Positions 5,594 through 20,850 of a DNA stretch of 64,000 bases are shown one piece after another. A program made the position numbers and the translations under genes. Source of the stretch: an uncultured bacterium. Its GTDB lineage: Bacteria > Planctomycetota > UBA8108 > UBA1146. The stretch lies in contig CAJXMG010000007.1 in NCBI GenBank assembly GCA_913056395.1, positions 1 through 64,000 on the forward strand, written 5' to 3'. The first letter of the stretch is position 1. Each line of letters begins with the position of its first letter. The notes beneath the pieces were generated by a model, which made no database searches, had not been told where the DNA came from, and saw only the letters and a list, made by a program, of their open reading frames with translations.

Positions 5594-5603
<10 letters not shown>
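4320..5603 (-). CDS. SCO1/SenC-family copper chaperone fused to a c-type cytochrome domain, with a C-terminal hydrophobic/basic tail
   Basis: SCO motif YTRCPDACPLETAKL and distal His in DHNLSMIIGN; then FRTRCSTCHEIG (CxxCH heme motif) with downstream MPN; C-term LTLISWASGVGLSLLAIRSRKRSER. Confidence 0.9.
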
Positions 5604-10702
<5,099 letters not shown>

Positions 10703-13544: not shown

Positions 13545-14714
13545 GTGAAGGTCACGACAGTCGTCGAAAGTTTGAGAGAAGAGGAAGATATGGCAGAAGC
13601 ACGCAAGGGGAGAGCCGGCGCAGGCAAGGGAAAGCGCGCAGCGGAAGCGAACACCCCGAACATCGAAGGTCTCGACGGCCAGAAAAAGCAGGCCCTGGAT
13701 TTTGCACTGCAGCAGATTCACAAGAAGTGTGGTCAGGGTGCGATTATGAAATTGGGGGACCAGCGTTCCCGTCAGGCCGACGTGATTCCTACAGGAGCAC
13801 TCTCCATCGACAAGGCTTTGGGAATCGGCGGACTGCCCCGTGCCCGAGTGGTCGAGATTTACGGTCCTGAATCTTCCGGAAAGACGACCCTGACCCTTCA
13901 TGCCATCGCCAACGCCCAGAAAAACGGCGGGGTGGCTGCATTCATCGATGCGGAGCACGCCCTCGATCCGACCTACGCTGAAAAGCTGGGTGTAGATCTT
14001 GAAAACCTTCTTGTTTCACAGCCGGACAGTGGTGAGCAGGCTCTGGAGATCGCAGAGATGCTGGTCTCTTCAGGAGCCGTCGACATCGTTGTCATCGACT
14101 CGGTTGCGGCATTGGTCCCGCGTGCGGAACTGGAAGGCAACATGGGCGATTCCCATGTGGGTCTTCAGGCGCGTCTCATGAGTCAGGCATTGCGTAAACT
14201 GACCGGTGTGATTCACCGCTCCCGTACCACGGTGGTCTTTATCAACCAGATCCGTGAAAAGATCGGTGTCATGTTCGGCAGCCCGGAAACCACCAGTGGT
14301 GGTCGCGCCCTCAAGTTCTACTCCTCAGTCAGGATTGACATTCGCCGTATCGGTGCGATCAAGTCCGATGGAGATGTGAGCGGGAACCGGACCGTCGCAA
14401 AAATCGTCAAAAACAAGATGGCTCCTCCTTTCAAGAAGGCGGAGTTCGACATCATTTTCAATGTCGGAATCTCCTACCATGGGGATCTGCTCGACCTCGG
14501 AGTCGAGCATGAGTTGATCAAGCGTTCTGGAACCTGGTACTCGATGGGCGAAGAGCGCATCGGTCAGGGTCGTGAACGGGCGGTTCAATTCCTCAGGGAT
14601 CATCCGGAGATGACCCTGCAGTTGGATGCGGAATTGAGACGCCGGATGTTCCCGGAAATGTTTGCATCCGAAAGTGAGAATGAACAGGCAGAGCCGGAAG
14701 CAGCCCAGTCCTGA
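13545..14714 (+). CDS. recA: Recombinase RecA (start possibly ATG at 13590)
   Basis: Walker [82 protein letters not shown]. Confidence 0.98.
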
Positions 14715-14858
14715 TTCGTTGTTGATCGAGAGATAAATGAAAAGGTGGCAGGCCGAATCGTGTTGCAGGAAGCCGGAGACTTTTCATGGTGACTTTTATG
14801 GCGGACTTCGATCTGTTCAGGTTCCCCGTGCGATGCTGGTGGCCACTTTCAAGACTCA

Positions 14859-14906
14859 AGTGAGATGACTAGTGAGATGACTAGTGAGATGACTAGTGAG
14901 ATGACA
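14859..14906 (+). repeat. Four tandem copies of a 12-bp repeat (AGTGAGATGACT)
   Basis: Copies at 14859, 14871, 14883 and 14895; the last differs in its final base(s). Confidence 0.93.
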
Positions 14907-14917
14907 GGAGTGAAGCG

Positions 14918-17900
14918 ATGACCCAGGACGAAAGAGTCCAGGAGATGACAGGAAGATCGTCAAAGGGCGGTTCTTCCCGTTTCAACGATTCACAGCGCGG
15001 GTCGATGTTGCTGATCGCCCTCGCAGTGCTGACGTTGCTGTCGATCATTGCAGTGACCTTCGTGGCGTTGATGCGTCTCGAGCTCAAGGCGACTGAAAAC
15101 TTCCGGGACAAGAGTCGTGCACAACTGCTCTCCAAGTCCGCGGAGTCAGCGGTGATCTCGATGCTGCGCAGTCGGCCCTTCTGGGATATGCCGCGTCTGA
15201 TGAACCGGACCAATGCTCCGTGGATCTATGGCCTGGTGGGCGGAAACGGATTCAGTCGTGAAGGGGGGTTGCTCTCACTGAAAGAAAGTGAGGGAGACGA
15301 AGCCTCGCTTGCCTCGAACCTGAGCAGTCCTTCCTATCCGGGAGTTAACGCTGCAGATCCGGGTGAGGACCGTTTCAAGACCAAGTTGATCGACACCTCC
15401 GGTCAGATCTACCTGAATGGTGAGCAGGATACACTTGCCCAGATCCTGACCAATCTCGGTCGGGCCCTGAAGTCCAATGATCGATACGGGGTAAATCCCC
15501 TCTGGACCGGTCCCAATGAATCGGGTCGTCAGATCGACGGCGAAGAGATCATCAAGTTCAGAAATCGATTGCCCGATCGCCGCTTCTCATCGAAATCGGA
15601 GTTGGCCGCTCTGATCGGCCGCGAAAATCTGGCTCTCATCAGTGATTTCGTCACCGCTCATGCCTACGTCAATCCTTACACCTATCGTTCCTCCGCTGCG
15701 CTTCCGGTCGTCAACACTTTTGACTCCGGCAACAGGGGTGGCCAGAACATCGGCACGACCGGGGTGAATCGAGGAAATGATCCTCGAGACATTCAGGCCC
15801 AATCCGTGGTGGGGGCAACCCAGCTGACCTCCGAACCGAGAGCGCCCATCAACATCAATACGGCATCCGAGCCGGTATTGACTGCGGTGCTGACAGGTTT
15901 GGGTGGGCGCCGTGCTTTCCCCTTCATGCGGATCAGTAAGCAGAGCCTTGAAAGTGGCAATGCGGGCTCCATCGATCTGGGTGGTGGAACCCTGGCACCC
16001 GTCAAGGAAGAGTTGGCCATCCAGCAGACTCCGGTGTGGGTCTACAGTCAGCCGTTGCAGCTGGATCAAGCCCGTAATATCGCCCGATCGATCATTTCCC
16101 AGCGACGTGATCGGGGCCCCTTCAGGAGTTGGACTGCTTCGACCAGTTCGAATGAAGTCGGATTTGAAGACTTCGTCAACAACCTCCCGGCCAACCTGTT
16201 CCCACCGCCGTCATCGGTTTACGTGGTTAATCCACAGTCTAATCAGACTTCCAACTTTTATGGAGAACTGATCGGTGCCGATGGCTCGAGGGAGATGTGG
16301 CAGAGGGGCGTTCCCAACAGTGAGCGAGGATTGCGTCGACAGTTCAATCTTCCTGCCGATGGCAACAACGCATGGTACTACGAAATGATGCGTTCGATCC
16401 TGGTCTCGAATGCCAATCCGAATACCCGAATCAACAAGGTCAACCCGAATCGTCCTTCGTACCGCGCGGTCGACAAATCCGGACTCGTCAAATTGGCGGG
16501 TGCGGATTCCGGTTCACCCAATGCGGGGGATGTCCGCTTGGGTCACACCACCGAATTCTGCTTCGACAGCAAGGGGGTCTTCGAGATCACCAGTCTGGCG
16601 GAGATCACAGGAACCGGTCAGGGTAACGAAGTCTTCTCGGAGGCGGTATCTCGCAGCGTGGTCAAGGTTTTTGACGTTTATCACCACACGACTCAGGAGC
16701 AGTTTGAGCAGCCCTTCCGGGCCGTTCAGAAGAGCAGTTTTGCCAGTCGTGAGAATGTGACCACATGGCCCGATCCCATCGATGCACTGCAGCCGGAGTT
16801 TTACACCGGTTCCGACAAGGATGGGCGCGTCGAGATCACCGGCAAGATTGATGCAGAGATCGCCGCGACCAATCCGGCAACACGGGGGACTCGCTGGCTG
16901 AGTAACCCGACTTTGCGTCTGGCCCATACCTTCCGCTTCCGGGATGAGCAGTCGACCAGAACCTTGAGAAATCTTTTGCGGACCACCTCCAATCCGGAGG
17001 CAAAGATCCGCGAACTGGGCAAGGTTCTCGATGCGGATTACGCCCAGAAGGGAAGCACCTACAAGAAGCGTTACTCCTCCTACACCTGGGGCGCACAGGA
17101 CAGTGCACTGGAAGAGGAGAACATTCCTGAAGTGCTGATCGACGAAGCGGACCAGAACTCCGACATCATGCCGGACGGACTGAACAGCAGTATCTTCCGG
17201 ACATCCGCTCTGGGTGGCCGATTCTTGCGCCTTCCTGCGATGATTTTCCGCCAAACCCCTGCTGATCAGGGGGCCGTCGGACGCAACTATAACAATGACG
17301 TAGGAAACATGCCGTACTACAACGGTGCGGTGTCATTCTGGATCAAGCTCGAATTCAACGGCGACGATCCGACCTTCTCCGGTCTTCTTGGAGCAACGCA
17401 GGTTCAGACTGCTGTTGGTCAGAATCCCCAGGATTCTGAGGGAAGCCAGTTTTGGATCTGGAAAAACACTGAGGGCCAGTTACGTATCTCGCGCCTTTAC
17501 TACCACCAGGCATTTGCCAAGGGTTACACCAGCCAGGCGATTCCGTTGATCGGTAACGAAGACGAGGAAACCTCCGGTGAAGAAGAAGCGGAAACCGACG
17601 AGCAGAAGTTCTGGGCCAGAACCGACGTCGTCGTCAATGTGAGTAATTGGAGAGCCCATGAATGGCATCATGTGGCAGTTTCCTATGACGATCAGTCTGC
17701 GACAAACCGGATTCGTGTATGGGTTGACCATGAAAACACTGATGCCGTCAATCACAACATCGGTGAAGGCATGTTCTGTGCCCTGAACGAGGAGGAGCCT
17801 AAAGATCAGATCATGATCGGTGGTTTCTATCGTGACCAGGCAGTGGCCACTGAGGGTCTTTTCAAGTTTGGGACGAACTTTACTCGCCAGGGGGTGCAAA

Positions 17901-18460
17901 CCGCACCGTCGATCAAGCGTGTGCTTGCAAATGCGACCATCGACGAGTTTCGGGTCTACCTGGGTCAGTACACCCAGGATGACAGCCGAAAAGGCGGTTA
18001 TTACACCGAGAGACCGGCCAAGTACGCCAACGTCTTCATGGTGCCCTTTGAAGAAGGCATCCAGCGACGTAAGTTGCGCAATATGACGTGGACCCTCTAC
18101 TCACCGAAGATCTACTCGGGAGCCTCTGTTCAGTTCGATGAACCGGTGATGACGGTACTCAATGTCAATGGACAGAGTACGGGGCGGACGTTGCAGGATC
18201 CCGGAGGTAAAGCCGGGGGAGATGGCGGCGGTAGAAGCAATCAGCAGATCGCCGGAAAGTACCTGTACGCCACAGGAAGTCAGGATTACGGCACCGATTT
18301 CAATCTGGGCTTTTTGGGTTACGAGATTCAAATGCGGGCTGGAACCGCTCAGGGCGGAGCCCTCTCCGGCAGAACCATGGTGTCTCCGGCTTTGGATGAT
18401 GTAACCCTGTCCGTTTACCTGCCCTCTGCACGCTATCTGATCTCGGAGGTTTTGGAATGA
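14918..18460 (+). CDS. GspK-like minor pseudopilin fused to a C-terminal LamG/concanavalin-like domain
   Basis: N-term QRGSMLLIALAVLTLLSIIAVTFVALMRLELKATENF (class III signal/pilin helix); C-term YNGAVSFWIKLEF...WRAHEWHHVAVSYDD...RVWVDHEN...ATIDEFRVYLG. Confidence 0.75.
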   Translation: MTQDERVQEMTGRSSKGGSSRFNDSQRGSMLLIALAVLTLLSIIAVTFVALMRLELKATENFRDKSRAQLLSKSAESAVISMLRSRPFWDMPRLMNRTNAPWIYGLVGGNGFSREGGLLSLKESEGDEASLASNLSSPSYPGVNAADPGEDRFKTKLIDTSGQIYLNGEQDTLAQILTNLGRALKSNDRYGVNPLWTGPNESGRQIDGEEIIKFRNRLPDRRFSSKSELAALIGRENLALISDFVTAHAYVNPYTYRSSAALPVVNTFDSGNRGGQNIGTTGVNRGNDPRDIQAQSVVGATQLTSEPRAPININTASEPVLTAVLTGLGGRRAFPFMRISKQSLESGNAGSIDLGGGTLAPVKEELAIQQTPVWVYSQPLQLDQARNIARSIISQRRDRGPFRSWTASTSSNEVGFEDFVNNLPANLFPPPSSVYVVNPQSNQTSNFYGELIGADGSREMWQRGVPNSERGLRRQFNLPADGNNAWYYEMMRSILVSNANPNTRINKVNPNRPSYRAVDKSGLVKLAGADSGSPNAGDVRLGHTTEFCFDSKGVFEITSLAEITGTGQGNEVFSEAVSRSVVKVFDVYHHTTQEQFEQPFRAVQKSSFASRENVTTWPDPIDALQPEFYTGSDKDGRVEITGKIDAEIAATNPATRGTRWLSNPTLRLAHTFRFRDEQSTRTLRNLLRTTSNPEAKIRELGKVLDADYAQKGSTYKKRYSSYTWGAQDSALEEENIPEVLIDEADQNSDIMPDGLNSSIFRTSALGGRFLRLPAMIFRQTPADQGAVGRNYNNDVGNMPYYNGAVSFWIKLEFNGDDPTFSGLLGATQVQTAVGQNPQDSEGSQFWIWKNTEGQLRISRLYYHQAFAKGYTSQAIPLIGNEDEETSGEEEAETDEQKFWARTDVVVNVSNWRAHEWHHVAVSYDDQSATNRIRVWVDHENTDAVNHNIGEGMFCALNEEEPKDQIMIGGFYRDQAVATEGLFKFGTNFTRQGVQTAPSIKRVLANATIDEFRVYLGQYTQDDSRKGGYYTERPAKYANVFMVPFEEGIQRRKLRNMTWTLYSPKIYSGASVQFDEPVMTVLNVNGQSTGRTLQDPGGKAGGDGGGRSNQQIAGKYLYATGSQDYGTDFNLGFLGYEIQMRAGTAQGGALSGRTMVSPALDDVTLSVYLPSARYLISEVLE

Positions 18461-19437
18461 ACCCGTTCCCTTTGACTCGCCGGGGGAGCCTTTTCACTGC
18501 TCTGGCAATCTTTCTGTTTGTTGCTCTTGCGCCCCTGTCTCTCGAAGCACAGGGGGAGGGGCGTGGACCGAACGGGGAAGATCTTCGTCTCCTCGAATTG
18601 CTGAAGATTGAAGTCAGCAAGGATGACAAAACCGGGCGTTACATTCTCGATGTTCAGGGCAAGGCCCCCAAGATGCCGGCTGGCACCAAGGTCGACCTGC
18701 TTTTGACCTGGCGTTCACAACTGGTGGAAACCTTTACAGTTACACTGCCCGTGAGCAGGAAGTTTCGTGAGAGTTTCAAGCTCAAGCCTTTGGAAGCTTC
18801 TTCACACAAATACATGTTCCGATCGGTCATCGATCCGAAAAAGCAGACCTCAAAGGTGAAAAAAGAGTTGGCCGGGGATGAGGACCTGTTTCCGCCCGCT
18901 GCCGCTCCCTGGACCGAGTTTCACTTCGACAAGCAGTTTGTCATCGGCTCTCCCGAAGAAATTGCTGCTGCCAAGAAGTTGATTCAGGATTACTTCGTCA
19001 ACACTTATACCGAGTTGGCCAAGATCGATGCTTTGGTGAAAAAGAGCATTGCGGACTGCTCGGAAGGTCTGGACTTTCGCAAATCCAGCGGCGAGTTCGA
19101 CGAGTCTGCCTGGCGAAAATTCATGGACAAGAAAGTCATCGAGAAGGTCACGGATTATCAGGAGGAAATCGTCAAGGGTTTCACGGATCCGAAGTTTTTG
19201 GCTTATCGATTGGGTCTCTCCCATCTACGGGATTTGTCCATCGCCGTAGCCAAGCGTGCGACCCATGAATCCATCAAACTCTATCGGGTAGAGGGTCTGG
19301 ATCCTTCCCAGAATGATGTGAAACCTGAAAAACTGGATATCAAGGTGAAGTCCGGGAACCGTGTTCCCCGCAACTCTGATCTCAATAATCTGGTCGAAAA
19401 AATCAATGCGCTGATCGGCGTGGGAGACGAAGAATGA
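18457..19437 (+). CDS. Secreted protein of unknown function, paralog A
   Basis: Signal peptide (LFTALAIFLFVALAPLSLEAQG); start overlaps the upstream stop (ATGA); similar to the next gene. Confidence 0.75.
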   Translation: MNPFPLTRRGSLFTALAIFLFVALAPLSLEAQGEGRGPNGEDLRLLELLKIEVSKDDKTGRYILDVQGKAPKMPAGTKVDLLLTWRSQLVETFTVTLPVSRKFRESFKLKPLEASSHKYMFRSVIDPKKQTSKVKKELAGDEDLFPPAAAPWTEFHFDKQFVIGSPEEIAAAKKLIQDYFVNTYTELAKIDALVKKSIADCSEGLDFRKSSGEFDESAWRKFMDKKVIEKVTDYQEEIVKGFTDPKFLAYRLGLSHLRDLSIAVAKRATHESIKLYRVEGLDPSQNDVKPEKLDIKVKSGNRVPRNSDLNNLVEKINALIGVGDEE

Positions 19438-20423
19438 TGATGAAACTCTTGAGCTTCAAATCGCCAAAAAACGGCGGGGCCTTCATTGTTTTATTGTGGA
19501 TCGCCGTTTTGGGCATGGGGACACTGGTCTCCGCTCCGGGATGGGCCCAGGACGACGAGAGTGGGCCGCCCAAACCGCCTCCGACCTTTATCGAGTTGAC
19601 CAGCGTCAAGGCGATTAAGGTCAAAGACAATTGGCAGCTTCGGGTTGCTGGTAAGGCTACTGATCTTCCTTCAGGCTGCGTCATCGATTTCCAGATTCGC
19701 TGGAGAACCTTCGTGCTGTACGACTTCAAGATCACCCTCGACGGTTCGCGCCGAATTGATGAAAAGATCGACCTCAAAGGGCTTGTTGGTTCCATCAGTG
19801 GTGCGCAGTTGAGGTCGGAAGTTCAGCCCTCTTCCCAGAGTCGCGCTGTTCAGGATGCGATGTCGAAGGACAAGAAAAAGTATCCGATTGAAACAGCACC
19901 ATGGAAGCAGTCCTTCTGGCGTCAAAAGTTTGACATCGGTTCAGCGACCGATATCGAAAAAGCCAAGAAGAACGCCCAGTCCTTCTTCCTGGCAAAAACC
20001 AAGGAAGTGCTCAGTTTGCAAAGGGCTTTTGAAAAGGCTCGCACTGAAGCCATCGATGGAGCCCGCTTTCAGAAGGGTGGCAAGTTTGATGGAGAATCAT
20101 GGCAATCGTTCGTTGAGCGTGAATGTCGTGAAAAAATCCGTAAACTTCAAAAGGACATCAAGGAATCGTCCAAGAGCCTGGACATGATTCCCCAATCCCG
20201 GGACATGAAGTATCTCGTGGAGATCGTCAATGCCGTTGCCAAGCGATCCTATGATCGATCGATCAGCTTGTATCGCGAACTGGGCCTGAACCCGGATGTC
20301 GCTGACATGAGTCCGAAGGATATCGACGTGAATTGTCGTTCCACCAAATTGAGCAGTCTTCAGAAAACGGTCGAGAGGCTCTTCGAGAGTCAGCAGATCG
20401 ACATGTCGCAACTGTCGAGCTGA
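19434..20423 (+). CDS. Secreted protein of unknown function, paralog B
   Basis: Signal-like N-terminus (GAFIVLLWIAVLGMGTLVSAPGWAQ); shares APW...F..(Q/K)F.IGS..(D/E)I..AKK and VAKR..(H/Y)(D/E).SI.LYR.(L/E)GL(N/D)P with the preceding protein. Confidence 0.75.
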   Translation: MMMKLLSFKSPKNGGAFIVLLWIAVLGMGTLVSAPGWAQDDESGPPKPPPTFIELTSVKAIKVKDNWQLRVAGKATDLPSGCVIDFQIRWRTFVLYDFKITLDGSRRIDEKIDLKGLVGSISGAQLRSEVQPSSQSRAVQDAMSKDKKKYPIETAPWKQSFWRQKFDIGSATDIEKAKKNAQSFFLAKTKEVLSLQRAFEKARTEAIDGARFQKGGKFDGESWQSFVERECREKIRKLQKDIKESSKSLDMIPQSRDMKYLVEIVNAVAKRSYDRSISLYRELGLNPDVADMSPKDIDVNCRSTKLSSLQKTVERLFESQQIDMSQLSS

Positions 20424-20436
20424 AGGGGGCCATCCT

Positions 20437-20850
20437 TTGGAGAGGTTCTTGCGACACTCTGGTGAGAACGGTGCGGAATCGGGCGAGGCTGACCAGCGTC
20501 AGCCCCGCCCTTTTTCGTCTGGGATCACGCCTGAAGAGTCTTCGCCATTGGCCCGTCGGGCTCGGACTTTATCTTCCAGGGGGTCTTTGAAATCTCTTCG
20601 TGATTTGCAGGTCTCTGATTCCACAAGTCCCCCGACTGACCCGCTGTTCACCGAGTTGCCGGAAGAGGGTCAGGTAGAATCGGTACGAACGGGTGAGTGG
20701 GTTCCCAATCTGGACCACGAGCTGGATCAGGCCCATCGGTTTACCCTTTTGGGTCGAATCTACCGTCCGATCCGGAACTTCTTTCGTAAGGCTCTGGGAG
20801 AGTCACTGTTTGGGGGGCGATCCACCGACTCGTCCAAGGAGGGATCGTAA
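20437..20850 (+). CDS. Hypothetical protein
   Basis: Open frame in the gap before convergent purD; no recognised motif. Confidence 0.35.
   Translation: MERFLRHSGENGAESGEADQRQPRPFSSGITPEESSPLARRARTLSSRGSLKSLRDLQVSDSTSPPTDPLFTELPEEGQVESVRTGEWVPNLDHELDQAHRFTLLGRIYRPIRNFFRKALGESLFGGRSTDSSKEGS

Follow-up and report, generated by a model that had tools for sequence, protein, structure and literature searches.

Modular pilins are established in Streptococcus sanguinis and include a concanavalin A-like lectin pilin with a GspI-like partner (PMC8179133, PMC9934059). This lectin pilin, PilC, is a 52.8-kDa protein that joins a short pilin part to a concanavalin A-like module, binds the GspI-like PilA and is thought to sit at the pilus tip together with this I-type subunit (PMC9934059). 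The principle of a lectin-type modular pilin is therefore already known. In type IVb pili, the large tip pilins TcpB and CofB are co-encoded with the secreted proteins TcpF and CofJ, which dock on the tip pilins through their N-termini (PMC9565799). The locus described here resembles both systems. Like PilC and PilA, it joins a pilin module to a concanavalin A-like module (protein A), with an Ig-like part involved, and like CofB-CofJ and TcpB-TcpF it encodes a large putative tip pilin together with secreted proteins (B and C), whose docking on A we propose. Unlike PilC, which is encoded in a type 4 pilus locus and has a short pilin part, A is an 1180-aa protein with a GspK-type core; the Ig-like domain is found on the separate secreted proteins, and the locus of A holds no other pilins. 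From CofB-CofJ and TcpB-TcpF it differs in the class of pilin. What is new is that the carrier is a GspK, that the Ig-helical partners are separate proteins and that the split layout extends across the phylum.

The window analysed, 64,000 nt in length (C7:1-64000), belongs to the genome of an uncultured marine Planctomycetota bacterium (2.77 Mb in 57 contigs, 95% complete). Its closest named relatives are MAGs of uncultured Planctomycetota; several carry marine names, for instance MCMED-G47, which is 98% identical over gene A. The coordinates, strand and lengths of A, B and C are exact (Table 1), the three ORFs lying where the original prediction placed them, and both predicted ATGA overlaps can be read in the DNA, at 18457 between A and B (...GGAATGAACC...) and at 19434 between B and C (...GAATGATGATG...). 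A fourth gene of the cluster, D, is present here and in several relatives. Consensus scans for promoters and terminators gave nothing above chance. Just upstream of A, at window positions 14859-14905, lies a 12-bp tandem repeat (AGTGAGATGACT) in 3.9 perfect copies; it was considered as a possible expression switch and rejected, as close relatives lack it.

Table 1. Features of the recA-A-B-C-D cluster (positions in the window; residue numbers refer to the encoded protein)
Feature	Position	Strand	Basis and remarks
recA	13545..14714	+	PF00154 E 4e-136; synteny; kept upstream of A across the whole class
Gene A, giant minor pseudopilin of GspK type, 1180 aa, with a LamG-like region at the C-terminus	14918..18460	+	
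A, class III (prepilin) leader, residues 1-28, ending in invariant Gly28	14918..15001	+	Alignment; NF037980 match starts at residue 26
A, hydrophobic N-terminal helix, residues 29-60, among the most conserved stretches	15002..15097	+	Alignment, model
A, GspK core, residues 155-329: IDTSGQIYLN motif, helical alpha-domain, PININTA / T2SSK motif at 311-329	15380..15904	+	PF03934, 5vtm profile match
A, LamG / concanavalin A-like region, residues about 795-1015: VSFWIK, HEWHHVAV and NATIDEF motifs	17300..17962	+	PF13385 in homologs
Gene B, Sec-exported, Ig-like beta sandwich and helical bundle, 326 aa	18457..19437	+	AlphaFold model; ATGA overlap with A
B, mature N-terminal segment, residues 32-44 (QGEGRGPNGEDLR), most conserved part, candidate docking peptide	18550..18588	+	
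Gene C, paralog of B, 329 aa	19434..20423	+	ATGA overlap with B
C, conserved mature N-terminal segment, residues 39-55 (QDDESGPPKPPPTFIEL)	19548..19598	+	Conservation 0.93 vs 0.77-0.79 for the rest
Gene D, small protein, 137 aa, TTG start	20437..20850	+	Homologs after C in loci L025, L029 and L034

Protein A has the features of GspK/XcpX, namely a prepilin leader with predicted cleavage after Gly28 and no Glu at +5, a hydrophobic helix, an alpha-domain and an NxNTA motif. In the alignment of homologs, the invariant Gly28 is followed by [ST]-M-L-[LI]-[IV]. The GspK model NF037980 matches residues 26-85 (E 8e-10) and stays below its curated equivalog cut-off (38.7 vs 130 bits), while PF03934 falls on residues 311-329 as a sub-threshold match in A itself and reaches E<0.01 in 7 of 28 homologs; GspK was detected in 24 of the 28. 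A profile built from these 28 homologs matches 5vtm, the solved Pseudomonas T2SS protein K, through the GspK core (E 6.6e-6), so the predicted kinship with GspK-like minor pseudopilins is borne out. Unlike GspK, which comprises 273 aa in the 5vtm chain, A adds about 600 residues including the LamG-like region, and it is not part of a T2SS operon. The order of the motifs suggests a GspK part of about residues 26-600, to which the LamG-like region and a C-terminal beta region were appended.

The Verru_Chthon cassette, represented by models for proteins A-D (TIGR02600, 02598, 02599 and 02596), likewise combines a giant K-like protein A with pseudopilin partners. TIGR02600 (Verru_Chthon cassette protein A) matches residues 30-85 of our A (E 7e-6). 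This match is confined to about the first 60 mature residues and, at 24.1 vs 332 bits, falls far below the cut-off. A also differs in that it does not lie in a contiguous A-D cassette, the K gene being split from the cassette here. To our knowledge, the definition of the Verru_Chthon cassette includes no Ig-helical partner of the B/C type. Our literature search on Verru_Chthon and on a planctomycetal GspK-LamG protein turned up no description.

The C-terminal LamG-like region of A, also part of the original prediction, was recovered at the level of sequence profiles. Its signal is weak in the sequence of A itself (PF02210, E 0.059), and the concanavalin A-like lectin family PF13385 was detected in the homologous region of 8 of the 28 homologs (best E 1.5e-8), which places a pilin module and a LamG-family module on one chain. 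A whole-chain model of A from 11 orthologs had a mean pLDDT of 39.6 and was confident only in parts of the GspK core, and the putative jellyroll fold therefore has its support in sequence. The region may bind sugars or glycans. LamG-like domains are not always lectins.

Proteins B and C both carry Sec-type signal peptides and are 25-29% identical, with E-values of 1e-30 to 1e-42 between orthologs, in keeping with the paralogous secreted proteins that had been predicted. Searches of Pfam and NCBIfam assigned neither to a family, so that B/C constitute a partner family defined here. AlphaFold modelled B (pLDDT 85) as an Ig-like sandwich at residues 47-125 and a long helical bundle at 166-278. 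A fold search with this model found no PDB structure at E<1e-3; the best-ranked matches, among them Asf1 and Wzt carbohydrate-binding domains, were beta sandwiches of a generic kind and were not taken as homology. In each protein, conservation is highest in the mature N-terminal segment, which reads QGEGRGP... in B and Q[DE][DE]SGPPKP... in C (for B, 0.92 vs 0.81-0.82 in the folded parts). In the model of B this segment is mostly of low confidence, with pLDDT <50 at residues 24-36. Since it resembles the docking peptides of TcpF and CofJ, we propose that B and C perhaps dock on A via their mature N-termini.

Gene A was found full-length and in single copy in all 16 high-quality genomes of the class and in 28 of 29 class genomes overall, except that a few copies are cut by contig ends; the sole genome without it is 55% complete. 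Across the order, A is kept at 47-98% identity, with very strong conservation over its full length. An 1180-aa protein that is conserved across the order and full-length throughout the class cannot be attributed to chance. The order recA-A-B/C is class-wide, with purD, ubiA, rseP and dxr on the opposite strand. The recA-A junction spans window positions 14714-14918, and the gap shrinks to 9 nt in relatives (L031:6802-6811); as the adjacency is class-wide and the gaps can be this short, recA and A may be co-transcribed.

Wherever the sequence runs on beyond A in a class or order genome, a B/C-type gene comes next, as it does at most phylum loci. The co-occurrence of the paralogs with GspK-LamG elsewhere, on which the original prediction had been staked beforehand, was thus observed. 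The prediction of two partners describes this order. In G009 and G016, too, B and C are separate, intact genes. As most of the class has one B/C gene and this order two, the tandem pair is a derived state that arose through later duplication of one gene.

Among 294 sampled Planctomycetota genomes, 76 encode homologs of A, typically of 1000-1500 aa, in which the GspK leader, helix and core motifs are kept across the phylum. By a simple heuristic, which takes the longest nearby ORF, 37 of 42 A genes have a downstream partner with a signal-peptide-like start. Six of the partners from the phylum loci are significant B/C homologs by profile (E<1e-6), and further ones are similar among themselves. 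A-like proteins also occur on two Omnitrophota contigs. On one short contig (L132; G123:C85), two A-type genes lie on opposite strands, and a separate secreted partner follows each of them.

The locus had been described as an orphan without other T2SS genes. Within the window, no secretin or GspE match was found, and no pseudopilin or T2SS gene adjoins A here or at any other locus read in the class and phylum. Beyond the locus, neither statement holds. A second GspK cluster begins about 12 kb past the window end. Its K gene (K2; C7:80340-86039, L065:340-6039), about 16 kb past the window end, encodes a giant GspK-like protein (1899 aa) and shares its operon with genes for two FHA proteins, a PilM-like protein and more pseudopilins; K2 was not found by the search with A at the thresholds used. 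A genome-wide check for GspD/E/F/G revealed a full canonical T2SS operon, D-E-F-G-H-I-J, on contig C23, with a GspK nearby (K1; 554 aa, NF037980 E 9e-14). In all, the genome encodes three GspKs (K1, K2 and A), five secretins, several GspE-type ATPases and several platform proteins, including sets not adjacent to pilins, and it also holds type 4 pilus machinery. K1 and K2 lie near J-type genes of their own, while A has no J-type gene beside it.

A pseudopilin cassette without a K gene is present on contig C9 (C9:9068-12637, L066), where two GspG/H-like genes, one GspI-like gene and one GspJ-like gene follow each other; some of these genes give partial NCBIfam matches to Verru_Chthon cassette proteins B and C. 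This K-less layout of four to five pseudopilin genes recurs in other class and phylum genomes of several families. The J protein of C9 is found in 27 of 29 class genomes. Outside the class, C9-type J proteins with matches extending beyond the N-terminal helix occur in 17 genomes from 10 families, and all 17 encode A. Matches confined to the N-terminus, which any pseudopilin can give and which we therefore set apart, occur in 20 further genomes, 8 of them with A. As a control, the canonical T2SS J was found in 141 genomes, of which 45 encode A and 96 do not. The co-occurrence tests gave Fisher P values of 1.6e-13 and 3.6e-7, with genomes treated without regard to shared ancestry. Of the 55 A-positive genomes outside the class, 38 have no long C9-type J match, which may be due to divergence. 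In G020, about 12 kb separate A from the K-less cassette on the same contig.

In the reading we propose, and to which we give an even chance, a dedicated type 4 filament (a pseudopilus or pilus) has A as its K-type tip subunit, takes its partners from the K-less cassette and has B/C docking on A. This reading is suggested by the GspK core in A, by the lack of a K in the C9 cassette, by the finding that, outside the class, long-matching C9-type J occurs only together with A, and by the partial Verru_Chthon matches of A and of the C9 genes; the absence of a pseudopilin gene next to A, the many A-positive genomes without a long J match and the short reach of the TIGR02600 match argue against it. 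The gene for the K tip would have moved away to recA and gained a LamG head, its partner minor pseudopilins H, I and J being supplied by the separate cassette. Prepilin peptidase would cut A after Gly28, the hydrophobic helix would pack with I and J, and A would cap the filament, with the LamG-like module exposed as a head that binds a ligand, probably a glycan. After export by Sec, B and C would join the tip on A in the periplasm, perhaps by way of the conserved peptides at their mature N-termini, either serving the tip as structural adapters or travelling outward with it as cargo. The pilus-tip or surface-display complex of the original prediction remains the best reading. The orphan label is misleading at the level of the genome, where a K-less cassette, a complete T2SS and type 4 pilus machinery are found at other sites, and this cassette tracks A across the phylum.

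Alternatively, A could be a second K for the canonical T2SS of C23, with B and C as its substrates or accessory proteins, to which the complete D-E-F-G-H-I-J operon and the Sec-type signals on B and C would be suited. The canonical J is enriched in A-positive genomes as well (45 of 55). However, the canonical system already has a K in the C23 region, and the canonical J fails to track A, being present in many genomes that lack A, whereas the long-matching C9-type J is never found without it. This makes a second K for the canonical system improbable.

We consider it slightly less probable still that A is a non-polymerising scaffold in the periplasm or at the surface, using its pilin-like N-terminus only as a membrane anchor, with B and C as subunits of an envelope complex. 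The giant size of A, its very strong full-length conservation and the lack of adjacent pilins would fit such a scaffold, but the retention of the GspK leader, helix and core motifs across the phylum would not, nor would the tracking of a K-less pseudopilin cassette by A.

The least probable of the alternatives is that A forms the tip of a DNA-uptake pilus with a large module grafted on a GspK-like pilin, as in ComZ of Thermus, a modular competence pilin (PMC8179133, PMC6561018): it would explain the class-wide linkage to recA and accords with ComEC in 25 of 29 class genomes, but recA lies beside A in none of the loci read outside the class, the extra module of A is LamG-like rather than a beta-solenoid, and ComEC, which occurs in many bacteria, discriminates little.

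If A is indeed the K-type tip of a dedicated filament, the idea of lectin-tipped modular pilins would extend from streptococcal pili to a pseudopilin K subunit. Members of the Planctomycetota are major degraders of polysaccharides. Microscopy in Planctopirus and Gemmata has shown that gold-labelled dextran binds to pili-like fibres (PMC5394234), and in the literature on such dextran-binding fibres we found no paper naming the binding subunit. The class-universal GspK-LamG protein, its conserved secreted partners and the K-less tip cassette that tracks A provide a concrete gene set. One speculative and on balance unlikely extension is that this set builds a hitherto undescribed planctomycetal filament that captures extracellular polysaccharide via a lectin-bearing GspK tip and co-exported Ig-helical partners. 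If this were true, the filament of A, B and C would be a molecular candidate for dextran-binding fibres of this kind.

Elsewhere in the window, positions 5594-10702 of the minus strand encode a secreted protein of 1702 aa. As read from its translation, the N-terminal part appears multicopper-oxidase-like and is followed by about 20 Asp-rich repeats of a calcium-binding type (DxDxDGxxDxCD) and a dockerin-like end.
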